Virus record (IMG/VR): IMGVR_UViG_3300030109_000164
Span: 1-54,170 of that record
Length of the DNA: 54,170 bases
Reading direction: 5' to 3' (one strand)
Source: a virus
Numbering within the stretch: position 1 is the first letter of the stretch; the number at the start of each line of letters is the position of its first letter. The position numbers were made by a program, and so were the translations under genes. The notes below the pieces were generated by a model. The model saw only the letters and a list, made by a program, of their open reading frames with translations. It did no database searches and was not told the origin of the DNA. This document shows, one piece after another, positions 14,812-47,730 of the stretch.

Positions 14812-17800
14812 CTAGTCTAGTTCAATACCCCATATCTCTGCCATCTCATCAATAGCATCACGGGATTGTTTTGGTGCAGTTTTTCTAAACCTTGCTGTTG
14901 CAATTCGTCTTGCGGCTTTATAAGATTTGTTTGCAGATTGTGTGAAGTTTCTAAAATAAAACTCTGAGTCTCTACCTACATTTTTATTATACTCATCTAC
15001 AAACTTTAGTACCCTACGCATCTCACCTCTATTATTTTCTAGTTTAGCTTTTACATAAGCCTGAATGTAATGTGCTTTCATAGATTTTACATACGCTTGA
15101 TTCTGTCTGCTAGCTCTTATAATGTCGTTTTGTATTGATACAGAGTATGGATAAAAACCTAACATTCTCCAGAACACTGTCCACCCACCAACTTCTTTTG
15201 TTAATACTGTGCCGTCTGCTTTAGTTATTCTTCCATCTTCCATATACTGAAGGCTATCGAATATTCCTCGTACAGCAGCTGATGGTGAGTCTCTTAGTAT
15301 AGTTCTAAATTCTGTTGTGTCATCTTTAAGTCCTATAGTCTCAGCTCCATAACGAGCAAGTTGCGTTCCTGTAGCAAACAGTCCTGCCATTCCTGAATAC
15401 ACTGGCCCTAAGAAATTTTTTGCTTCTTGCCAGTATTCACCTGAATTATTCTTAGCTTGAAATATACCAGTCATTGGAATTAAATCACCAAAGCCTAGTC
15501 TTGTAGAAAATGTAGCTCCAAGTGTAGGGTCAAGTCCTCCTCTTAAAACAAATGGTGACGCACCAGGAATGAAAGCATCAATAAGTTTAGCTGCTTCCTG
15601 CTCAACAGTTCCCATTTTAATACCAAACTTCTGTGCTAGTGTTTCAATTAAATCAGATAGGTCGTCAGCAAATGGTAGTCCTGATAAACCTGCAAGGAGA
15701 AACAGTGTAGTTAGCATATAAATTCTACCGCTCTTTGGTAAACCTTTCATTAACTCGACAGTAATAATAGGAAATTGTTTATACATAAAAATATATTGTG
15801 CTAAGTTTCCTCTAGCCATTTCAGGTCTGTTATACATAGCATATTCACCCTGTGATGTGTTTACTGCTTTTGTTGCAAATGTTATTGCGTTTTGTTGTAC
15901 AACCACCTGTTCATCTTTCAGAAGTTTATCGTACGCTTTACCTTCAAAATTAGTAGCTAATATTCTTTCTCGTTCTAATCTGTATGCCGCAAGAAATGTA
16001 GCTCGTCTGTTAAGCTGTTCCGTGTAAGAGAACATATACATCCATCCTTTAATAGCACCATTAAAATTATTACTAGCTCTACCACCTCTTGATGTTCCGA
16101 CTAATGCATTAAACTGTGCAGCTTGTAACACACCTGCACCTGTGGCTTCTAATAGAGCTTCAGCTTCATCTTGCTCAAACCTGGATTGTGCTAGTTCATC
16201 TTGGTTATTAGCTAGTTCATATACAGTATCATAGTTAGATAAACTTCCTCCTTTTACATCATATGTAGCTCGTGCTATTGCTGCAGCAGCAGTGGCTAAA
16301 CCAAATCCTCCGCCATATCCTCTTTCTTTATTATAAGTGCCTAGGTATGGGATTGCATGTGATGGTAAAGATATTAAGTTGATTCCAGCAGTAGCGATTG
16401 AACCACCAAGCTGTAACAACACAGCAGTTAATTTTAGTCTTGAACCTATTTCACCAGACAATGCATCTTCTGTTGAGTCTACAATACTGGCAGAGTCAGA
16501 ATAAAATTGAAGTAGTTTATTAGCTTCTTCTCTATATCTTTCACCTCTACCTTGATTGCGTATATAATCTTTGTTAGTTAAAGTTTCACCTCTTTCTGCT
16601 TTTGCTAAACCTTCCCTAGTCTTTGCTTCGTTAAAACCAGGCTGTCCTATATCAGCGGAATGACTATAAGAATATGCATATTGTTCATACTCTTTTATAG
16701 CAGCTTCTTTTTGTTCTTGAGTACCTTCTCTTGTAGCTTTTTCAAGTTGTTCTAGTCTATCAGGGTTACCTCTAAAAAAACCATCGTTATCTATTATATC
16801 ATTAAGCTGCCAAGTAAAGGTAACTTTTCCTGCAATATGCCCCATAGTTTCTAGATGTTCTGCAACACTTCGTACAACATCCTGATCCCACCCTGGGTTA
16901 CCTGTTTTTTCTAAACTGCTTCTAGCTCTGTCACTAACACCTGATAACGCAGTAATAACTCTAGCTCTTTCATCTATGCTAAGTCCAATATCTAACTTAC
17001 TAACAATAGACATAAACTCTGTAAGATTTAATGTGTTGGCAAGAGGTTGTGACTGTCTAGCTTCTGCTACCTCTGGTCTAATAAACACTGTAACATCTAA
17101 TCCATCTACGTCTTTCATATTATATCTACTTTCTTTACCCTCATCATCTCTTACAAATTTTTGATTTAATTCTGTTTGTATATCTACTGCGTCTTGCTTT
17201 GCTTCAGTTTGAAAATATGGTAATGCTCCAGCAAAGTTTGCTTGTAACTTAACAGCTTTATTAGTTTTTACATTATATGCCTGCATACGAACTTGGTATT
17301 TACCTCGTCTAGTAAATGGAACATAACCTGTCATCATAGTTCGTTTAGCTTGAAACTCTGCATTTACAATCTGTTGGTCATGTGCAAATAAGTTTAAGAT
17401 AGTATCAGTTACTTCAAAAGCTTCATTCTTTTTATATTTTATATTAGCTAAATTTGGTAAAGAATTAATAATGTCAGCAAGTTCAGGTCTTTGAAATTCT
17501 TTAGTTTCTTTAAACGATGGATTACCATTTTCATCTATGCTTCTACCTGCCCAATCGTCTAATTTTTCAGGTTTCCACAATGCTCTGTTTATTTCTTTTA
17601 TAAATCTTTGAGCTTCTTTTATTTGTGCTTTATTAGGAGTTCCGTCAGCGTTAGGTTTTTTTCTCATTATGTTAGTGTACTCTTCAATAATCCTGTTAAA
17701 AATTTGTACATCTTCACTTGTAGGAAGTCCGTTCTGTCCTGATATAGTTTGAATTTTTTGCATAGCTCCGGTTTTTTGTCCTACGGCAGCAAGTAAATTT

Positions 17801-20800
17801 GCTTCAAGCACATCAATTGCAGCTTGGTTTACAGCATTTCTATTTTCTTCATATATTCTATAAGCATTATTAAATTCTTCTTCAGTTATAGCTACACCTT
17901 TTTCATCTACTCTAAATGATTTTGTTAAAGGTTCAGACCCATCGGCTAGTTGATAAGGAACACCTTCTTTAAATTGTTCTTTAGTAAGTTTACCTATCTT
18001 TTCTAATCTGGCACGATCTTTTTTATTCATTACTGGTGCATCACCTGTTTTATCTAACAAGTCTTCTGCTTGTATACTAGCTGGGGTTTCTGACCTAGCT
18101 TTAAACGCAGCACCAAAAGCAAGCATCTCACCTCCTATTTGCAGTTCTCTTGCTGATGGCCCTTTACCAAATCCAAACCAATGTGGAGTATGAGTATATG
18201 CTGTCATTCTTTCGTACTCAGACATTACTCTTCTAGTTTTACCAGCTGACTTCTGAAATATATTAAATATTTTTTGTAGTCCTTCGCTTCTTTGAGATTT
18301 GTTATTTAAAGTTTGTACGGTTTCAGCAACTCTTCCAAGATAATTGCTAGCACTTTCGCCTTTACCTTTAGGAACTTTCTTTAAAAATTCTTGGAACTTA
18401 TCAAAGCTACCAAATGCTCCTGCTTTTTTATTGAGGGCATAAGTATTTGCCCAGTTAGTAGCGTGTGTAGCTGATGTATTTTCCATAGAAAACCTGCCAT
18501 GCTCAGCTTCTGATTCTAATCTTTTTATATTTTCTGCTATTTGTTTTACACCAACAACACCTTGACCACCTGTCATTAAGTTCCTACGAGACTGTCTTAG
18601 GAAGTACCGCGTAATATCTGCATCACCTATGTTTATTAAATCACCCATACCTATTGTATCTAGTACAGCCTGAACTAAATTTTTAATACGATAAATTAAA
18701 CGACTATCAAATGATGCAGCTTTATCAGCAAGAACTTCTTCTACAGCTTCCATCATATCTATACCTGGGCGTGAAGTCATCATCTTGTCAACTTCATTTT
18801 TTACAAACCCGTCTGTTCTGTATATTTCACGGAAGATAGCATCCATTCTACTACGAGGCATAAAAGCACGAAAACCAAAATGCCCTAATGCCTCGTGAGC
18901 AACAACCAATCTTGCTTGTTCTTTTGACTTTATATAATCACTAAAAATTATAATTTGGTCACCAATAGAATACCCAGCTGCTTCTACTGTATCAAAATCT
19001 TTAAGTGGTCTACCAGCTGCTGCGCGTCTGTAAAGCTCTGGATTACTTTCAGCTAACTCTTGTACATTAGCGACTACAGTAACAGTTGGTTTTACTTTTA
19101 ATTTACTAAGAACTTTTTTAATAATAAGTTCTATATCACCTTTAGCAATAGGTTTTACAGGTTTACCATCTGCTCTACGAAATCTTCCTGAGTCATCAGT
19201 CTTTTGGTCAGCAGCATTTACTTGGTCATTAAGAGATTCTGTTGTGTTTGTTGTTGCTTCTTCGTTTCCTCTTCTAAGTCTGTCTCTACCTGTTGCTTCT
19301 CTTGCTGTTGGTTCAGCAGATGAATCAGGTATAAGTCTGCCATCAAACGTTTGTTTAATTTTTAATCTGCCTCCAGTAGTAAAATAATCTTTTAACTTAT
19401 GACCATTAGCCATAGTATAATTTTTTTCTTTAGCCATTAGTTTGGCATACTTCGTTTCCATTTCATTTGTAGCAGGATCAGCTTTACCCGGAAGGTCGCT
19501 CTTTATTGGAAAATTATTATATGCTGTATACGCACCGTTTTTAATAGAAACTTTTTCAAGATGAGAATTAATAAGCGCAGCTAACCCTTCAGCTTGGTCT
19601 TGTCGAAATTGTTTTCCTCTATCTGCTTGTCTTTCTCTACCAGACGCACCAAGTGCTAAATCATATAATCTTCTGAATTCATCTAGAGGTATACTTTCAC
19701 CAAGTAATTGTTTTTTACGCATTATATCTTGTAATCTTTCTGCAGTTTCCTCACCAAAAACTGTACCTTGTTCTTGTTCTTCTGTTGTTATGTTTGATGT
19801 AAGAACTTCTATTTGACTATCAGTCCACCATTTTGGCATGTTTGCAAGCGGAGCTTTAATTGAACTAAGAACATTTCTTTTTAAAGCATACTTTAACCAA
19901 TCTTTTTCTTTACCTTCTGTATTAGTTCCTTCTTGAACTTTAGCTGCACTATTGTTTATCGTTTTAATAAAAGCTGCGTCTAATACTTTTTGTTCTCTAG
20001 AAGTAAAGTTAGTAAAGTTAAGATAATTAATAGCTTGTGCTCTTAATGTATCTTCTGGTATGTTTTCAGCAAAAAATGCAAACTCCATTAGAATTTCACC
20101 AAGCATATAAGCAGCTCCAACATCTTTTTCAAATGCTCCCGGAGTTATACTTATAATATTAAAATCTGCAATAACAGAATTAAGTTCTTCTTGTTGAGTA
20201 AATCCTTGCAAAGAACTTAAACCAGCAGTACCACTGCCAAATTCTGTTTGTTCTTCTTTTTTAACTTCTGGTTTAGGTGGAATTCGTTCTAATACAAATT
20301 TAGCTTCTGCAGCTGTTAGTGCAGCTAAATCTCCGTTGACTGTATCTTCGGCAACTAAATTATTCCAAAGTGTTTTAAAGTTTGGTGGTAATCTGTCATA
20401 GCCTAAAGCACCACCTACAGTTAATGCATTCCACATTTCAATAGGTGTTCTATCTTTAACAGGTACAAAGATATTACTTATGCGAGCTTCTGATTCCTGA
20501 GCTTGTTTACGAATCCTGTCTTGCCTATCTTCCCTAGCTGCTCTTTTTTCTTCTGCGCTAGCAAACGCGATCGAGCGATTTGTCGCTTTTCTGATTTGCT
20601 CCTTAAGCCTATTCTCTTGGGCAGTTGTGAGTTGCTGGGCGTCTCCTCTTCGAATTGCTTGGCCAGCTCCGGTTTGTTCTTGTACAGCCACTTCTTCTGG
20701 GCTTCCGATTTGAATGGCATCTTGACTCCTTTCTATTTCTTCTGGTGTTGTTGGTGGTCTTACTTGTGTTCTTACTGTTGGTTCACTAGTTACTTGTTCC

Positions 20801-23364
20801 ATTTCTGCTATAAGATTATTTTGTTCTGTTAAATTGTTGTTATCTAAAGCATTTTGAAAATCAATAATGTAATCGTTTATTGTATTTTGAGGAACATTCT
20901 GTTGTTGCATTTTTGCTAAAAGCGGTGCAATAGCAATAGCTTTATTAGGAACAGGAATAGGAATTCTTTCTTGTCCTGCATCTTCTAACTGAGTTTGTGT
21001 AGGTTCTGTAGGCTCTGGTGTAACCACAGGTGCTGCTGCAGCTGGGCCTCTTTGTAATCTTCTCATTCCTGGTATCGTTAACTGTCTAGGTTGTCTAGCA
21101 GGTCTTTCTGGTATTGGAATTTGTGCTTGTCTAAGTTTAAATAGTCTTTGTTGTTCAGGAGTTAATTCGCTTTCAGCAATTAAACCTTCTAGTGCTTGGT
21201 TTACTCTTGTTTGATTTTCAAGTTCAACTTGCTGTTCATAATCTCTATATTGAATGTCAGCTATTTCTTCTTCTTGTCTAGCTTGCTCTAATCTTTGTTG
21301 TTCCATCTGTTGGATTTGTTGCTGTTGTGCTTGTTGTTGAGCTTCATTAAACTCTCTTTGTCTTTGTGCTAGCTCAGCTTCTTGTTGGTTAATCTGTCGT
21401 AGTTGTTGAATTTGATTTTGCTGTTGTTGAATTGTATTACTAGCTAGTAAAAGTTGTTGTCCTGCAGGTGTCTGTTGTATTTCCTGTGCACTCTGAGCAG
21501 GTGTATCAAATGGAATTGTTTGCTGTTCTAATGGAAGTGTTTGCTGTCCTGCTCTTTCTAACTCAGCTTGTGTAGGCTCTGGTGTAACTACAGGTGCTGG
21601 TTGCTGTGGTATTTCTGATAATTGATTTAAGTCACGAGCAGTAACTGGTTGTTGAGGTGGAAGTATAACTCCTTGTTGTCCTTCAGTTTGAGCTGGTAGC
21701 ACAGGTTGATTAGCCTGAACTACTGTATCTAATAACTCTCCTTGACGAGTCTGTTCACCTGCTACAAAGTTAGGAGGCCCAGATACTTGAGAGATAGGAG
21801 GAACAGCAGGAGGAATAACTGGAGTACCACCTGGTGGTAATTGATCTGGTGAAGGAGGAGGCTCAGGGCCTAAGACATCACCTTCGATACCAGGACTTGG
21901 TAATAATTTTTGGTCAGCTTTCGGTTCAGTTTTATTTAATATATCAGTAGCTTCGCCTCGTTTAAGAAGATTAGCACCACCACCTAGTGGGCCACCAATA
22001 GCAAAACCTGCTGCAAAAGCATTGATTAATCGTTTACCTACTTCAGCATCACCTAGTTGTCCTGTACCTGCAAGAAGAATACCTTCCTGTCCAACTTCAG
22101 TAAGACCTTCAAGTGTACCACCAACTGCTAAACCTTTACCTGCTCTTACAACTCTATTACCTTTTGTAAGAAGGTCAGGGCCAACACCAAAGATACGACC
22201 CGCTAGAAAAAATTCTGGAAGAGTTTCAAGTGCTGCGTATGGTATAGCACCAAAAGCTGCTGTAGCTCTATTACCTTCACCTGTATCTCGCACTTCACCA
22301 TAGATGTCACCTATACCCATAAGATAACTACCAGCTGTAGAAGTTATAGCAGCACCTCCTGCCATAGCTTGACGTCTACCTTGCTTAAGTGCTCCTCTAG
22401 CACCACCTAGTAATTCATCAGCTTCAAGTTTACGAAGCTGACTAGCAGTAGCTAATGACCCAGGTTTAGGTCTAAGAGCAGCTGCACCATACAGACCTGC
22501 ACCTTCACGAAGTAATTTTCTTTCACCTTTTGTAAGTTTTTGTCCGTTACTATATTTTGTGGCAGCTTTTAATAATTCTTTTTTTACTTTACCTCTACCA
22601 AATGTAGTAAGTACAGCACCACCTACAGCAGTAAAAGGGTTAGCACCACCACCTGCAACTGCACCTGCTCCAGCACCAGCAAGAGCTACCAGTATTGATT
22701 CTATTAAGTTTGGCCCTTGTTGTGCTAAGTTAGCAACAAACCAATCTATTGCACCATGTCCACCTTCGTTTTCAAAATAATCAATGCTAGTAAATTCTCT
22801 TTGAAATGGTTGGTTATAATATAATTCCTGTGCCGCACTGTCTACCCAGCCCTGTCCTAGTTCTTCTGCACCAAGAAACTGTGCAGCTCTACCAGCAAGT
22901 AACTTTAAATTACTACCACCTATCTCAAAATTTCTTGCCATAAGAGTACCCTTACCAGGGTCTTCTATATTTCTCATATAGTTTTTATAAGAATCAGGAG
23001 ATACGCTTTGCCAGTCTGGAGCATCAGGTACAGTAGTAGCTCTAGGCTTATCTAAGAATCCTTTACCTTCTGCATCTAACGCTGACTGTGAATCATCAGC
23101 ATCATACAGTGCACCATTAACAAACATTTTATTTTGAGAAGGACTAAACAATACAAGAGGCCCTGTCTTAGGAGGTTCGTTAGTAGATAACAAAGCAGAT
23201 TCTAGTGATTTAGCTTCTTGTTGTAGTTGTATATAGGGGTCAGCAGCATTTGCTCCAAGTTGTGATTTACCACCGATTGGATCAAAAGGATTACCTGTTC
23301 CAGGAGCACTGGTAGCATCGTAAAAGTTACTTGAAAAAGGTTGTAATCCTGCTTTCTTTACCAT
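14812..23364 (-). CDS. Giant polyvalent internal/ejection protein with zincin motif
   Basis: 2850 residues, last gene of the structural arm. N-terminus: a hydrophobic Gly/Ala-rich region around residues 210-470, then Pro/Gln-rich linkers and a Gln-rich coiled coil (about 640-720). The centre has VVAHEALGHFGF with HExxH at 1490-1494, a zincin metallopeptidase signature. The C-terminus near 2520-2580 (IFMYKQFPIITVELMKGLPK, then a hydrophobic stretch) resembles the LPD38-type domain at the end of phage polyvalent proteins. It is presumably packaged in the capsid and ejected into the host with DNA. I looked for virion RNA polymerase motifs of the N4 type and saw none. A second gene is overprinted at residues about 882-962. 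Confidence 0.88.
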   Translation of the reverse strand: MVKKAGLQPFSSNFYDATSAPGTGNPFDPIGGKSQLGANAADPYIQLQQEAKSLESALLSTNEPPKTGPLVLFSPSQNKMFVNGALYDADDSQSALDAEGKGFLDKPRATTVPDAPDWQSVSPDSYKNYMRNIEDPGKGTLMARNFEIGGSNLKLLAGRAAQFLGAEELGQGWVDSAAQELYYNQPFQREFTSIDYFENEGGHGAIDWFVANLAQQGPNLIESILVALAGAGAGAVAGGGANPFTAVGGAVLTTFGRGKVKKELLKAATKYSNGQKLTKGERKLLREGAGLYGAAALRPKPGSLATASQLRKLEADELLGGARGALKQGRRQAMAGGAAITSTAGSYLMGIGDIYGEVRDTGEGNRATAAFGAIPYAALETLPEFFLAGRIFGVGPDLLTKGNRVVRAGKGLAVGGTLEGLTEVGQEGILLAGTGQLGDAEVGKRLINAFAAGFAIGGPLGGGANLLKRGEATDILNKTEPKADQKLLPSPGIEGDVLGPEPPPSPDQLPPGGTPVIPPAVPPISQVSGPPNFVAGEQTRQGELLDTVVQANQPVLPAQTEGQQGVILPPQQPVTARDLNQLSEIPQQPAPVVTPEPTQAELERAGQQTLPLEQQTIPFDTPAQSAQEIQQTPAGQQLLLASNTIQQQQNQIQQLRQINQQEAELAQRQREFNEAQQQAQQQQIQQMEQQRLEQARQEEEIADIQYRDYEQQVELENQTRVNQALEGLIAESELTPEQQRLFKLRQAQIPIPERPARQPRQLTIPGMRRLQRGPAAAAPVVTPEPTEPTQTQLEDAGQERIPIPVPNKAIAIAPLLAKMQQQNVPQNTINDYIIDFQNALDNNNLTEQNNLIAEMEQVTSEPTVRTQVRPPTTPEEIERSQDAIQIGSPEEVAVQEQTGAGQAIRRGDAQQLTTAQENRLKEQIRKATNRSIAFASAEEKRAAREDRQDRIRKQAQESEARISNIFVPVKDRTPIEMWNALTVGGALGYDRLPPNFKTLWNNLVAEDTVNGDLAALTAAEAKFVLERIPPKPEVKKEEQTEFGSGTAGLSSLQGFTQQEELNSVIADFNIISITPGAFEKDVGAAYMLGEILMEFAFFAENIPEDTLRAQAINYLNFTNFTSREQKVLDAAFIKTINNSAAKVQEGTNTEGKEKDWLKYALKRNVLSSIKAPLANMPKWWTDSQIEVLTSNITTEEQEQGTVFGEETAERLQDIMRKKQLLGESIPLDEFRRLYDLALGASGRERQADRGKQFRQDQAEGLAALINSHLEKVSIKNGAYTAYNNFPIKSDLPGKADPATNEMETKYAKLMAKEKNYTMANGHKLKDYFTTGGRLKIKQTFDGRLIPDSSAEPTAREATGRDRLRRGNEEATTNTTESLNDQVNAADQKTDDSGRFRRADGKPVKPIAKGDIELIIKKVLSKLKVKPTVTVVANVQELAESNPELYRRAAAGRPLKDFDTVEAAGYSIGDQIIIFSDYIKSKEQARLVVAHEALGHFGFRAFMPRSRMDAIFREIYRTDGFVKNEVDKMMTSRPGIDMMEAVEEVLADKAASFDSRLIYRIKNLVQAVLDTIGMGDLINIGDADITRYFLRQSRRNLMTGGQGVVGVKQIAENIKRLESEAEHGRFSMENTSATHATNWANTYALNKKAGAFGSFDKFQEFLKKVPKGKGESASNYLGRVAETVQTLNNKSQRSEGLQKIFNIFQKSAGKTRRVMSEYERMTAYTHTPHWFGFGKGPSARELQIGGEMLAFGAAFKARSETPASIQAEDLLDKTGDAPVMNKKDRARLEKIGKLTKEQFKEGVPYQLADGSEPLTKSFRVDEKGVAITEEEFNNAYRIYEENRNAVNQAAIDVLEANLLAAVGQKTGAMQKIQTISGQNGLPTSEDVQIFNRIIEEYTNIMRKKPNADGTPNKAQIKEAQRFIKEINRALWKPEKLDDWAGRSIDENGNPSFKETKEFQRPELADIINSLPNLANIKYKKNEAFEVTDTILNLFAHDQQIVNAEFQAKRTMMTGYVPFTRRGKYQVRMQAYNVKTNKAVKLQANFAGALPYFQTEAKQDAVDIQTELNQKFVRDDEGKESRYNMKDVDGLDVTVFIRPEVAEARQSQPLANTLNLTEFMSIVSKLDIGLSIDERARVITALSGVSDRARSSLEKTGNPGWDQDVVRSVAEHLETMGHIAGKVTFTWQLNDIIDNDGFFRGNPDRLEQLEKATREGTQEQKEAAIKEYEQYAYSYSHSADIGQPGFNEAKTREGLAKAERGETLTNKDYIRNQGRGERYREEANKLLQFYSDSASIVDSTEDALSGEIGSRLKLTAVLLQLGGSIATAGINLISLPSHAIPYLGTYNKERGYGGGFGLATAAAAIARATYDVKGGSLSNYDTVYELANNQDELAQSRFEQDEAEALLEATGAGVLQAAQFNALVGTSRGGRASNNFNGAIKGWMYMFSYTEQLNRRATFLAAYRLERERILATNFEGKAYDKLLKDEQVVVQQNAITFATKAVNTSQGEYAMYNRPEMARGNLAQYIFMYKQFPIITVELMKGLPKSGRIYMLTTLFLLAGLSGLPFADDLSDLIETLAQKFGIKMGTVEQEAAKLIDAFIPGASPFVLRGGLDPTLGATFSTRLGFGDLIPMTGIFQAKNNSGEYWQEAKNFLGPVYSGMAGLFATGTQLARYGAETIGLKDDTTEFRTILRDSPSAAVRGIFDSLQYMEDGRITKADGTVLTKEVGGWTVFWRMLGFYPYSVSIQNDIIRASRQNQAYVKSMKAHYIQAYVKAKLENNRGEMRRVLKFVDEYNKNVGRDSEFYFRNFTQSANKSYKAARRIATARFRKTAPKQSRDAIDEMAEIWGIELD
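20478..20720 (-). CDS. Overprinted small basic protein inside the giant ejection gene
   Basis: 80 residues on the same strand as the giant gene but in another frame. AAGGAG (complement of 20726-20731) lies five bases before ATG 20720, an ideal Shine-Dalgarno. The product starts MPFKSEAQKKWLYKNKPELA followed by KQFEEETP, the pattern (KSxAQxxWxxxxxPELAxxxxxETP) of a small protein family I know from many phages as separate genes. The host frame here encodes low-complexity linker. By count, two 60-base rows of this stretch (20521-20580 and 20641-20700) are 48% and 52% G+C against 22% in the row at 20821-20880. Function unknown; probably nucleic acid- or virion-associated from its basic C-terminus. 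Confidence 0.8.
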   Translation of the reverse strand: MPFKSEAQKKWLYKNKPELAKQFEEETPSNSQLPKRIGLRSKSEKRQIARSRLLAQKKKEQLGKIGKTGFVNKLRNQKLA

Positions 23365-28359: not shown

Positions 28360-28719
28360 TTATAGCCCTTTCATTTGTTGAATTAGTAAATTAAGTGCAG
28401 CTCTTGTCTCAGCTACATCGGTAGCTAAAGTCTGCACATCAAGTACAAGTTTTTGAAAATCATCTAAAGATGCAACATTTTGACCGCTTATAGCAAAACC
28501 TGTACCTTTTGCAGTTACCTGTACTAATTTTTGTGCACCTAATGGATTTGTTGTAATTTGACCCTGTGTAATAGCTTTACTTGCAGTATCAATTTCACCA
28601 CGTAGTCCAGTTAGTAATTCTACATTTTCTTTAACTGTAGCTATAAGTATAGTTTGGTAGTCTGTAAACCCTCCTTGTGGTACTGCTGGTACAGTTGTAA
28701 ATCTATTGTTAACGCTCAT
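28360..28719 (-). CDS. Small structural-region protein
   Basis: 119 residues, largely helical after residue 20, ending in a heptad-like segment (FQKLVLDVQTLATDVAETRAALNLLIQQ) that could form a coiled coil. It overlaps the upstream nozzle gene by four bases and is one base from the next gene, so it is translated with virion proteins. No family recognised; an assembly or connector role is inference. Confidence 0.65.
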   Translation of the reverse strand: MSVNNRFTTVPAVPQGGFTDYQTILIATVKENVELLTGLRGEIDTASKAITQGQITTNPLGAQKLVQVTAKGTGFAISGQNVASLDDFQKLVLDVQTLATDVAETRAALNLLIQQMKGL

Positions 28720-31118
28720 GCTGTCCTCAATCCATATGGAGTTTCACCTATATGTATTGCTCGTATTCTTGCCGAACCCGAAACTCCTATTTCAAATGTA
28801 TCACTTCTATATCCGCTTGGCAATCTAAATACATCGCTAGAACTTACTGTCCCTTGAAATATTAACTGTTTATCAACAAACAATTTAAAAGTAACTGGTA
28901 ATACTCCTGAAATTTCTAATTGAAACTGCGTTTGTGCATCTGCATTTATTGCATATGAATTTAATGTACCTGAATTTTCTACTCTACTTCCAGAATCTGT
29001 ATAGTCAGTTGGCCCGTTAACTGTACCAAGTTGTTGGCTTTTAGTCCATATTACAGCATTACTAGTAGGTACACTATTATTGTAAGCTATAATATTTTCT
29101 GTTTCTGTAGCTGATGTATCAAAATCTGCAATGACTCTAGCAGCTCCAAGATTCATAAAATCTTTGGTAATAATAGCTTTTGACTTCCATTCTAATGGAG
29201 AAAGAATTTGGTCTTTATTATCCCATTCATATAAATTACCTAAGTTATCTCCTATATAATACATTACACCAGTTTGATAATCAGTACATGCTGCAGTAAA
29301 AGTATAGTTTATACTTACAAGAAGTCCTCCTACAGTATCATCTCTTTCAAATATAAGCGAAGAAGCTGAATGAGAACCAAAGTATTTACCATTGTAGTAA
29401 TGTCCAATAAGAGTAGCAGGGTCAAGAGCTGCATTCCAAGTATCCCAATCGTGCACTAACTTAGTTACGATGTCTGTACCTTGTGAAGGAGCATGACTAG
29501 CAAGCCCTCCGTGAGTAGCCCATAAAACAGCATACCCCATATTAACTACAGATTTTTTAGAAAGACATGGATATAAACTATCAACACGAGCAGACGACAT
29601 AGTAGCAGGGTCATTACCTGATACCTGATATGGATATTCTTTTGTAAGCACTAATATAAATCCTTGTATAGGTTCTATTGCTACAATGTCTGAATCAAAA
29701 GTCATTCTAAATCGTTCAGGCCATGCATGTGGTTTATCAGGAAATGAAAAACATAATTGATTATCAAAAAATCCAACAAGTATATTATTGTGAGCTGCAC
29801 GAATACCTTTCATACCTGTAGGTGGAGGATCGTTATCTTCAGAATCTAATAATCTAGATAGACCTGACACTAAATAATTATCTGTAAAGTTAAAACTACT
29901 ATCACCCCAATATATTGCTGTTTGACTTAATGACTCAGCTACATCGTGAAACACAGTACCGTTAGTATCAGCAGTTTCAGAAATAGCATTACCACTATCG
30001 CTAAATGTAAACGAATACTTATCAACAATAGAAGCTACAGTAAATGTACCATTCATACTGCCACTATCTGTAGTCATACCAGATAATTTAAATCTATCAT
30101 CTACAATAAAATTATGAGGGTGTGCTAAAGTTAAAGTAACTACACTACCAACTCGTTTTACTTTAGTAGTAGTTGTTGGAAACCATAATGTTCTTAATAA
30201 AAAATACTCTGTAGCTGCTGCAGAAACAACAGTTCTATATAACCTTACACCTCGTACAAAGTTTAAAGTTGGTGAACTAGGTTTTTGTTGTGGTATATTA
30301 CTAACTGTTACAGTTTGTCCTTCTTTAATATACACTTCAGCAGATGGTAAAGATGGTATAGACTCTTCATCCCAAGGTGTAATCCATGTATAGACATATG
30401 TTCTAATCTGTGTGTTACCTGCCATATCAGCACGACCAGTAGTATTTGCTGTTTTTGCAACTTGGTCTCCAGGACTAAAGTATGAAAAGTCAGTAGTGTT
30501 AAGAACAGTAATTTCTACATTAGTAGCATTAAAAGCTTTAGCTTCATCAGATGTACCAAAATCTCTAACAGTAACAATATTACCTGAGCGTAAGTTATGA
30601 GTTGTTCCTCCATAAAATGTTGCAGTATTACCACTATCTCTTTCATAGTGTGTAGCACTTACAACAGAAAATGATACTGCTGCAGTATTTAAAGTAGTTG
30701 TAGGTAAAGGTAATCCAAGGTCATAATATCCGTTTGTTACTGGGTATGGAGCACTTCCATTAGTAGCTAAATCATAGTTAGATACTTTGGGTGTGCCATC
30801 ACCTGTATAATAAAATCTTTGCTCAGTATCTTCTGTTGATGTAGTAGTTGTCCAAGGAGAAGAAGCAGTAGCAATATCTACATCATTGAGATAAGTAAGA
30901 AATACATTAGCATTATTAGTAGGATTAGTAAGTTTATATAATGTTTGAATTGTACCTGTCCTTCCAATGTTTTCAACTAGCTTTGGAGTTCTATAAGGTA
31001 TAAGGTCACCAGAATACAACTTAACATTATAAGCTGTTTGAGCTGCTCCATCAGGTAATAACTCATCAGATATTTTTGGAGCTTCACCTAAAAACTTTTG
31101 TAGTTTTACTGAACCCAT
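28716..31118 (-). CDS. Large tail nozzle / stabilisation-type protein
   Basis: 800 residues, beta-rich throughout. The N-terminus MGSVKLQKFLGEAPKISDEL, then LPDGAAQTAYNVKLYSGDL, is a block conserved in marine podovirus proteins of this size, analogous to T7 gp12 (tail tubular protein B) or P22 gp10. Repeated beta segments (YVYTWITPWDEESIPSLPS, GVRLYRTVV) resemble a beta-propeller or jelly-roll nozzle. It forms, with the smaller adaptors at 40594-41900, the short tail. It starts in the stop codon of the endolysin gene. Confidence 0.78.
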   Translation of the reverse strand: MGSVKLQKFLGEAPKISDELLPDGAAQTAYNVKLYSGDLIPYRTPKLVENIGRTGTIQTLYKLTNPTNNANVFLTYLNDVDIATASSPWTTTTSTEDTEQRFYYTGDGTPKVSNYDLATNGSAPYPVTNGYYDLGLPLPTTTLNTAAVSFSVVSATHYERDSGNTATFYGGTTHNLRSGNIVTVRDFGTSDEAKAFNATNVEITVLNTTDFSYFSPGDQVAKTANTTGRADMAGNTQIRTYVYTWITPWDEESIPSLPSAEVYIKEGQTVTVSNIPQQKPSSPTLNFVRGVRLYRTVVSAAATEYFLLRTLWFPTTTTKVKRVGSVVTLTLAHPHNFIVDDRFKLSGMTTDSGSMNGTFTVASIVDKYSFTFSDSGNAISETADTNGTVFHDVAESLSQTAIYWGDSSFNFTDNYLVSGLSRLLDSEDNDPPPTGMKGIRAAHNNILVGFFDNQLCFSFPDKPHAWPERFRMTFDSDIVAIEPIQGFILVLTKEYPYQVSGNDPATMSSARVDSLYPCLSKKSVVNMGYAVLWATHGGLASHAPSQGTDIVTKLVHDWDTWNAALDPATLIGHYYNGKYFGSHSASSLIFERDDTVGGLLVSINYTFTAACTDYQTGVMYYIGDNLGNLYEWDNKDQILSPLEWKSKAIITKDFMNLGAARVIADFDTSATETENIIAYNNSVPTSNAVIWTKSQQLGTVNGPTDYTDSGSRVENSGTLNSYAINADAQTQFQLEISGVLPVTFKLFVDKQLIFQGTVSSSDVFRLPSGYRSDTFEIGVSGSARIRAIHIGETPYGLRTA

Positions 31119-45469: not shown

Positions 45470-45691
45470 TCATTTTGACTTTGCTGAAAACGTTTCAGGG
45501 GACTGTTCTATTAATCTAGTAATTTCTGACAAAACTTGGCACCGCCCCTGTGCAAGTGCTGTGTTTTGCAAGACACTTGGTAGCGTCTGTAGCTCGTGAT
45601 CACGCCATTCCTTTAGCCATTCTAAGACTTCAGGATATTGACGACACACTACTGCTATAGATTGAACAACCTCTGGTTTTGGATTAATCAT
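45470..45691 (-). CDS. Small unknown protein between portal and scaffold
   Basis: 73 residues; helical: VVQSIAVVCRQYPEVLEWLK, ELQTLPSVLQNTALAQGRCQ. Overlaps the portal end by four bases, so translation is coupled. Comparable small helical proteins are found between portal and scaffold in marine podoviruses. Function not known. Confidence 0.7.
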   Translation of the reverse strand: MINPKPEVVQSIAVVCRQYPEVLEWLKEWRDHELQTLPSVLQNTALAQGRCQVLSEITRLIEQSPETFSAKSK

Positions 45692-47730
45692 CCAGCACCT
45701 CCAGTGTCGCGGTTGCTCACTGTATTACCATCCATTCCTCCTTTAGGAGAACCATCAGGTTGAGTAGGTGTAGGCTGTGCTTGCTGTGTTTTTTCTTGCA
45801 TAGCTTGCATTTGTGCTTTCACTTTGTCCTCAAACTTTTCTTTCTCTCTAGATGGAATAATGTCATCTACAGGCATTTGCAAACTCTTAGCCACTTCACG
45901 AAGAATCGCTGCACGGCCATCCTTACCAACGATTGCCATATCGGTTTCGTTGGCGGTTGCATTAAGAAATTCTAAACGGCGAACATTTACAGTTTCTTTA
46001 ACTGCAAGGTTAACTGCACCTTTTGGTACAATGTTAACATCGCCTTTAATTGATTCATCTTCATCATAACGCATATTATACACAAACTGTCTGTGTACTA
46101 TTGGTTTAATAATCTCGTTATCTATGTGCATAACTACTTGTCGTATACCTTTACCAGCTGCACCCATTAACATAGATAATCCAGAAGATGTTCTGCCAGC
46201 GCCTTTGACATCCAGGTCACCATACACATATGCTGGTATACCTGAATGGTCATCGGCTAGCTTGGAGAATTTATCATAAACACCTAACAATGTATTTGCA
46301 TTGTCATCTGGTTGTGTAAATCTAACAGCAGGTGAACTAGAACCCAATGGGTCATTTGTTACTTGCCAGATTTTCCACGGGTGGAGTTGCGTGATGTCTT
46401 CGTTCGGCGGGATTCTTTCGAGGTTGACTTCGACTTGGGGGCCTGACGAAATGCCCATATTGTTGACCAAAGCTCTCGCAGCCGCGTTACACACATTTTG
46501 TAAATCTTCAATAATTTCTGGTATACCTTTACCCCAAAACGCACCGGGGCATTTAATAAACGAACTTTTCGCATAAGGTTTTTCTCCTAAAGGGTCATAG
46601 TTTAAAACTGCTTTAATGATATAATTACCTACAGCCCAAACATTAGCATCATATTCTTTTGATTCATCGGGTACTTCTTCTTCAGTAAGTCCCCACTCTT
46701 TTAACATCTTACCACTTACTTTACCCCAGAACTCTAAAGCATCATAAGTTGTAGTAGGTTTGTTATGTGTATGAAACTTTCTTTCTTCATTTTCTTTAGT
46801 AAGTTCTACGTCTTCACTAAACCAAGATGTACCATTACCAATGTCAAGCACTTCTTTAATAGCATCATCATCGTAACCTGGAACACCAACTAAGTCTGAT
46901 AATTCCGAACGGCTCAAAGGATGATGTTGAAATAAATAACCTTCATTAAGATTAGTTATACCCGGTTCAGGATATATTCTAAATGGATCGACCCTTTCAA
47001 ACTCTGGAGCAATAACTTCAGCTGCTTCTACAGTAGTTCTACCATTTTCATATTTCCAACCAAGTTTTCTTTGTCTACGAACCACAGGACCTTTGACAAA
47101 ACCACAGGGGTAAGTAACCAAATCTGTTATAAAATCATTAAAGGATTCGCCCCAGCCACCTTGTGTAAACTGATCTCGAATCTTAATATCCATTTTTTGT
47201 GCACGATTATCTGCAGCTTGCAATAATTTAAAACGATAATTTTGTGTTACCATTTCTTTTAACTCAATCATTTCTTCTTGGGTTGGTGCTTGTCCGTTCA
47301 TCTCAACAACTTTTACAACTTGTTCAGCAAACGAATTTTCTATCTCTGCAGTTTGTTGTGGTGATAAATCTGGAATAGGTGTAGGTTCTAAACCCCACGG
47401 AGGTGAACCTTGGTCAAGTAAAATATCTCGTAGCCAACTTTCAGCCGCACGACATTTTACTTCTGTAATCATCATATAAACATCAGACCCACCTTGTTGA
47501 TTAATCTGTGCTAATTTATCTGCTTCATATTCTCCGTTTCTTTGGCGAAGTCCTTTTAACATAATGTTTTCAATAGGTTTCTTTGCCATTCTTGCAGCAT
47601 CCCAACATGTTCGTAAGTGAGAAGCTAAGCCAATGATAAGAGGATCATTTTGTCTTTCAGCAATATCTTTTTTTATAGCAGCTTCTTCTTGCTTTACTAA
47701 ATCTTCATTGCCTATGACTTTTAATACCAT
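45688..47730 (-). CDS. Portal protein, P22/HMO-2011-like
   Basis: 680 residues. Sequence ESWLRDILLDQGSPPWGLEP, followed by long helical regions and PFRIYPEPGITNLNEGYL, SFIKCPGAFWGKGIPEII and a C-terminal helical tail rich in Gln (QAMQEKTQQAQPTP) is as in podovirus portals of the P22-like group. It is at the vertex through which DNA enters and leaves, next to terminase and scaffold. Size is normal for the family. Confidence 0.9.
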   Translation of the reverse strand: MVLKVIGNEDLVKQEEAAIKKDIAERQNDPLIIGLASHLRTCWDAARMAKKPIENIMLKGLRQRNGEYEADKLAQINQQGGSDVYMMITEVKCRAAESWLRDILLDQGSPPWGLEPTPIPDLSPQQTAEIENSFAEQVVKVVEMNGQAPTQEEMIELKEMVTQNYRFKLLQAADNRAQKMDIKIRDQFTQGGWGESFNDFITDLVTYPCGFVKGPVVRRQRKLGWKYENGRTTVEAAEVIAPEFERVDPFRIYPEPGITNLNEGYLFQHHPLSRSELSDLVGVPGYDDDAIKEVLDIGNGTSWFSEDVELTKENEERKFHTHNKPTTTYDALEFWGKVSGKMLKEWGLTEEEVPDESKEYDANVWAVGNYIIKAVLNYDPLGEKPYAKSSFIKCPGAFWGKGIPEIIEDLQNVCNAAARALVNNMGISSGPQVEVNLERIPPNEDITQLHPWKIWQVTNDPLGSSSPAVRFTQPDDNANTLLGVYDKFSKLADDHSGIPAYVYGDLDVKGAGRTSSGLSMLMGAAGKGIRQVVMHIDNEIIKPIVHRQFVYNMRYDEDESIKGDVNIVPKGAVNLAVKETVNVRRLEFLNATANETDMAIVGKDGRAAILREVAKSLQMPVDDIIPSREKEKFEDKVKAQMQAMQEKTQQAQPTPTQPDGSPKGGMDGNTVSNRDTGGAG

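Follow-up and report, generated by a model that had tools for sequence, protein, structure and literature searches.

The linker of a giant structural gene of this virus contains a second, smaller gene on the same strand and in another frame. Positions 20478-20720 are a protein-coding gene that is under selection at the protein level, and in close relatives of the giant this linker is a gene slot, which holds either the same small gene (the MPFKS gene, named after the beginning of its product), or an unrelated gene that shares its frame and its Shine–Dalgarno (SD) motif, or no nested gene at all. Both points are shown by the comparisons described below, while the translation of the small gene is inferred. 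Our whole reading, that of a real nested gene which occupies a modular slot, is initiated internally, was acquired by capture and codes for a small basic late protein, is very likely to be correct (probability of about 0.87), the parts about expression and function being inferences.

The window, by which we mean the whole stretch of DNA that was analysed, is a virus record of 54,170 bases that carries a podovirus-like structural operon on its minus strand (Table 1). The match of the giant to NF032893 scores 165.8 bits, above the curated cut-off of 100, so that the giant qualifies as a PLxRFG-type protein. Its position downstream of a phrog_511 gene and the presence of the PLxRFG domain suggest that it is probably an internal virion or ejection protein; its location in the virion and its part in delivery are inferred, and the description of the giant as an ejection gene in the initial annotation therefore remains an inference. 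Its conserved N-terminal module, used as a query, led to 80 giant loci.

Table 1. Positions of the features discussed in the text (window coordinates unless another record is named).
Feature	Position	Strand	Remarks
Portal/head-tail adaptor	45688-47730	minus	Operon member, followed by further structural proteins
Upstream internal virion protein gene	28716..31118	minus	phrog_511, E=8e-107
Giant gene, 2850 aa	14812..23364	minus	Last in the structural operon
Conserved N-terminal module of the giant, aa 41-560	21685..23244	minus	From alignment; the linker with the nested gene lies downstream of it
PLxRFG (tail-700) domain of the giant, aa 2305-2812, C-terminal	14929..16452	minus	NF032893, E=1.5e-48
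Nested gene, 80 aa (MPFKSEAQKKW...NKLRNQKLA)	20478..20720	minus	+1 relative to the giant; MPFKS family (phrog_1375 type)
SD of the nested gene, AAGGAG	20726..20731	minus	Five-base spacer (TCAAG) to the ATG
Nested MPFKS gene of Elemovirus	L187 7207-7335 = MT497017.1 54224-54352		Unannotated

The initial annotation, made from the sequence alone, had claimed that an 80-residue same-strand, out-of-frame ORF lies here behind AAGGAG and a five-base spacer, that its product begins with MPFKSEAQKKW and resembles stand-alone small phage proteins, and that rows of about 50% G+C occur inside it against 22% in a row nearby. All these claims held. The ORF begins at giant codon 881.33, that is, in the +1 frame relative to the giant; being complete, with 80 codons, and lying within a larger ORF on the same strand in another frame, it is nested in the strict sense. 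Its G+C content is 0.481, against 0.371 for the remainder of the giant, and 64% at its third codon positions, against 17% at those of the giant; rows inside it reach 0.50-0.52 and the lowest row nearby 0.217, and only 8 of 2770 windows of equal length along the giant are as rich. When both alternative frames of the giant are scanned, it is the sole long ORF that is preceded by a strong SD, the other SD-preceded start opening just 22 codons. This other start, at giant codon 1747.33 (minus strand), is a TTG behind a strong SD, and its 22-codon ORF is also in the +1 frame.

One may object that the ORF is a product of chance, the codon bias of the linker leaving the +1 frame open and the SD being accidental. 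As a matter of fact, when the giant is shuffled synonymously, an equally long +1 run appears in some part of the gene in 135 cases out of 1000 (13.5%), although the exact position of the nested ORF stays open in only 3 of 1000. We have therefore rejected the length of the ORF, which is not significant across the whole giant, as evidence for a gene. Since length is insufficient as proof, we draw significance from homology and conservation.

Regarding homology, an HMM built from 26 stand-alone phage genes, and from no nested one, finds the nested ORF with E=3.5e-19, and this is the only significant match among the 741 ORFs of the window. The HMM and the alignment define an N-terminal core, MP[FIY]xSxxQxxWxxxNxP, that is common to the nested protein and to the stand-alone genes, the latter being present in phages of Streptomyces, Synechococcus and Prochlorococcus. 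When compared directly to the PHROG profile phrog_1375, the window protein gives only a weak match (E=0.086); its relatives match with E values down to 4.8e-8, and so do, in all, 23 of the 32 members of the alignment. The proteins of phrog_1375 are stand-alone small phage proteins to which no function is assigned; they have the same N-terminal motif (the stand-alone core being MPFKSxAQRKWMYANKP), but the window protein differs from them by a longer C-terminal helix (residues 44-75) and by its position inside another gene. In the AlphaFold2 model of the nested product (mean pLDDT 85.9), two helices are short and a third, at the C-terminus, is long. Searches of Pfam, NCBIfam and PDB sequences with the small protein returned nothing useful, and its fold has no match in the PDB; in a viral library, all credible fold matches are small phage proteins without a named function. 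Three of the stand-alone members have no gene of their own annotated: they are found in Synechococcus phage S-CBS2 (L096 6001-6108), phage C75C1 (L097 4001-4102) and Prochlorococcus phage P-RSP2 (L098 4001-4120).

The overlap also bears the mark of selection. Over six pairs of related giants, 11 synonymous changes are observed in the giant frame along the overlap, against 88.9 expected (observed/expected ratio 0.12, Mantel-Haenszel p=2e-23), and among 156 windows along the giant, the ratio is the lowest on the overlap (0.12, the median being 1.01). Taken alone, the closest pair (WIN-L016) does not show significant synonymous suppression (5/58 vs 274/2029, p=0.33). The small frame is conserved at least as well as the giant frame across the overlap, and in distant pairs it is the better conserved of the two (WIN-L030: 0.52 in the small frame and 0.25 in the giant frame). 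The codon of Phe3 is TTC in 40/40 nested copies, because TTT would put a TAA in the giant frame, but in only 8/30 stand-alone genes. Among the outcomes that the initial annotation took to be refuting were a lack of homologues outside this locus and a lack of suppressed synonymous variation in related genomes; neither occurred: there are homologues, nested as well as stand-alone, and synonymous changes are strongly depleted.

Scans of viral contigs, with the small family and with the N-terminal module of the giant, together with two phage records, gave 54 distinct nested copies. The giants are widely divergent, and all the copies (54/54) are in one relative frame; an SD-like motif (4-mer) precedes 46/54 of them. 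Some nested starts have no clear SD (L063, L065, L070, L073, L187 and L188), and initiation there is unexplained. In five cases (L037, L063, L065, L070 and L073), the host giant has no similarity to that of the window that BLAST can detect. The stand-alone homology, the suppression of synonymous changes and the conservation of these 54 copies all but exclude the possibility of a chance ORF.

The two phage records deserve a comment. In the cultured Flavobacterium Elemovirus group, a nested copy of 42 aa lies at giant codon 1220.33, again in the +1 frame, the giant being a structural protein of 3,694 aa; 68 deposited records match, and in those inspected the matching region is annotated only as the giant structural protein. 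In the genome of Manatee Spring podovirus, the nested copy lies at giant codon 865.33. A short form of the giant, of 927 codons (L133), also carries the nested gene. The small gene is not always inside: L033, L040, L054, L064 and L071 have it as a separate gene immediately after (0-85 nt) a gene of 1,690-1,990 codons, and two of these giants (L033 and L071) have homologues, in L065 and L063, within which the small gene is nested. In other phages, a member of either small family adjoins the portal gene or follows it a few genes later. Neither small gene was found in the parts examined of giants that share only the C-terminal domain (those of Pseudomonas phages LKA5 and 8P and of Shewanella, Pseudoalteromonas and Microcystis phages). 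One candidate nested case, L069, was rejected, its long ORF beginning downstream of the start of the small gene. A giant may also be split, as in L164 (2683-11847) and L165 (8770-17934), into an N-terminal gene of 689 codons, a gene of 251 codons and one of 2210 codons, and a divergent nested ORF is seen near the beginning of the last of these.

The linker does not always house the MPFKS gene. In many giants that lack it, a second family of small basic proteins (MPLKKGSSNKVVSANV..., similar to phrog_2423, E=6e-9) is found in the same slot and in the same frame. This nested gene is present at 11 giant loci (L134, L138, L140, L143, L144, L147, L150, L162, L163, L175 and L177), at about giant codon 780-860; in L147 it starts with GTG after AAGGAG. 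Profile comparison detects no homology of this family to the MPFKS family (hhalign probability 0.2%). The proteins similar to phrog_2423 and to Pfam DUF6496 share the size class and the charge of the MPFKS family, the DUF6496 match of the second family (15.4 bits) being below the curated cut-off of 24. The nested products have 42-90 residues, and all the proteins that we checked, in both families, are strongly basic (pI 10-12); neither family has been given a function, and no PDB relative is detected by sequence for either.

The exchange is best seen in a set of closely related giants, of which L135 has the MPFKS gene, L140, L143 and L177 have the phrog_2423-like gene, and L139 has neither. 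Their flanks are 83-97% identical, and the slot is only 29-56% identical between different alleles. The SD region is common to both nested families and is degenerate in L139, which has neither a nested start nor a good SD. Over the 64 giant loci that cover the slot (related contigs included), 45 have the MPFKS gene, 10 the second family and 9 neither. We do not claim that the constant frame proves a single origin, because the use of that frame by the second family as well weakens this argument.

A different explanation is that the conserved feature is a cis-acting element, the SD and the nested start pausing ribosomes in the linker and thereby letting each half of the giant fold on its own, whatever the peptide. 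The slot does lie between the N-terminal module and a long C-terminal part in many giants, and the SD region is kept when the nested family changes. On the contrary, what is conserved is the protein sequence, and other phages encode it in a gene of its own; the slot is used by two unrelated proteins whose charge profile is the same, and L139 does without any nested gene. We consider this explanation very unlikely.

It could also be that the nested gene is a selfish cassette, a mobile element of the kind described for ShiLan, where an out-of-frame homing endonuclease gene is hidden in a phage methylase as an in-frame insertion (PMC11855218). That precedent, and the presence, absence and replacement of the nested gene in nearly identical giants, are in favor of this idea. 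ShiLan is similar to our case in that a phage gene contains a complete gene in another frame and that the distribution of this inner gene is patchy. However, its 195-aa endonuclease has a GTG start, for which leaderless initiation is proposed (PMC11855218), whereas the nested gene of the window has an SD, codes for a small basic protein and can be exchanged for an unrelated gene. The products of 42-90 residues match no nuclease family (none was found for the nested product in Pfam, PHROGs or NCBIfam, and no fold match in the PDB); the fixed frame and the similar position across very divergent giants are unlike a homing element, and ordinary recombination explains the swaps. A selfish cassette is thus very improbable.

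As to the origin of a nested gene held in an exchangeable slot, the initial annotation had left the choice between an independent gene captured inside the giant and a linker that grew around it. This is now refined: the data fit modular capture and replacement in a tolerant linker, because the same region of close giants holds the MPFKS gene, a different gene or none. The competing scenario is de novo overprinting, in which the small families were born inside giants and later escaped as stand-alone genes. In support of it, the frame of the nested genes is the one that is more commonly open in giants, and stand-alone genes are open in the nested-type frame in only 2/31 cases, against 22/31 for the other frame. 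Against it, phages of Streptomyces, Synechococcus and Prochlorococcus have stand-alone relatives, and the presence of two unrelated families in the slot would require two births with similar products. Overprinting is unlikely but not excluded. We argue that capture into the linker is the likely route, in the absence of a tree test of the direction of origin, since there are stand-alone relatives in cyanobacterial and Streptomyces phages, giants without a nested gene, and swaps of unrelated genes. The slot would have been filled by pre-existing small genes, the giant frame then having to read through them; as stand-alone genes are rarely open in the nested-type frame, the captured copies must have been tuned.

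Regarding expression, we propose that the late mRNA of the giant is most likely translated from two starts, that of the giant and the internal one led by the SD, so that internal initiation would yield the small protein together with the giant. The product would be a small, strongly basic, helical late protein working with the structural or ejection machinery. Its charge, its position in the late operon and its pairing with giants or with the portal suggest that it may bind nucleic acid or the giant itself during virion assembly or DNA delivery, an inference made without expression data and one that we are slightly more inclined to doubt than to accept. A bolder proposal, towards which we lean by a small margin, is that giant structural genes have a slot dedicated to expression, whose frame is fixed and whose SD stays in place, and in which different phages put small basic proteins that are read out of frame, can replace one another and act together with the giant protein. 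If that is true, we are dealing with a modular system of genes within a gene and not with a single case of overprinting.

Same-strand nested genes are well known in phages, the classical example being Rz1 inside Rz of lambda (see also PMC5295617), among other out-of-frame cases. Like the small gene described here, Rz1 is on the same strand as its host gene and has its own translation start; unlike it, Rz1 forms with Rz a fixed pair of functional partners, whereas the host in the window codes for a giant structural protein and can take in different guests. An interchangeable slot for nested genes in giant structural genes is not reported in the literature that we searched, which did not cover most subscription journals.

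Nested genes are usually viewed as fixed accidents of overprinting. Here, the nested gene keeps one frame over very divergent phages; nevertheless, an unrelated gene can take its place, or it can disappear, with the host frame remaining open, so that the gain, exchange and loss of overlapping genes can be observed in natural variants; the giant gene seems to offer other genes a place to dock. Gene finders tend to reject out-of-frame nested ORFs, and our observations point to an overlooked class of late phage proteins. Their repeated association with giant structural genes gives a way to study how the giant proteins, which are poorly understood, work. Laboratory tests are feasible, since cultured Elemovirus phages carry a nested copy.

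Last, we note two observations about modules. When L136/L139 are compared with L135 and L144, a linker block (KLVERIKKGAFGGPTG.LGERLKQ) is seen to occupy the slot of L139 and, in L135, to come after the nested gene; it is possible that the linker itself is assembled from exchangeable blocks. The MPFKS motif also forms the N-terminus of larger proteins (120-510 residues) in L038, L062, L076, L077, L078, L088 and L013; these fusions give no functional clue beyond DUF5661, the sole domain above cut-off (in one protein), and the motif may serve as a portable N-terminal module.
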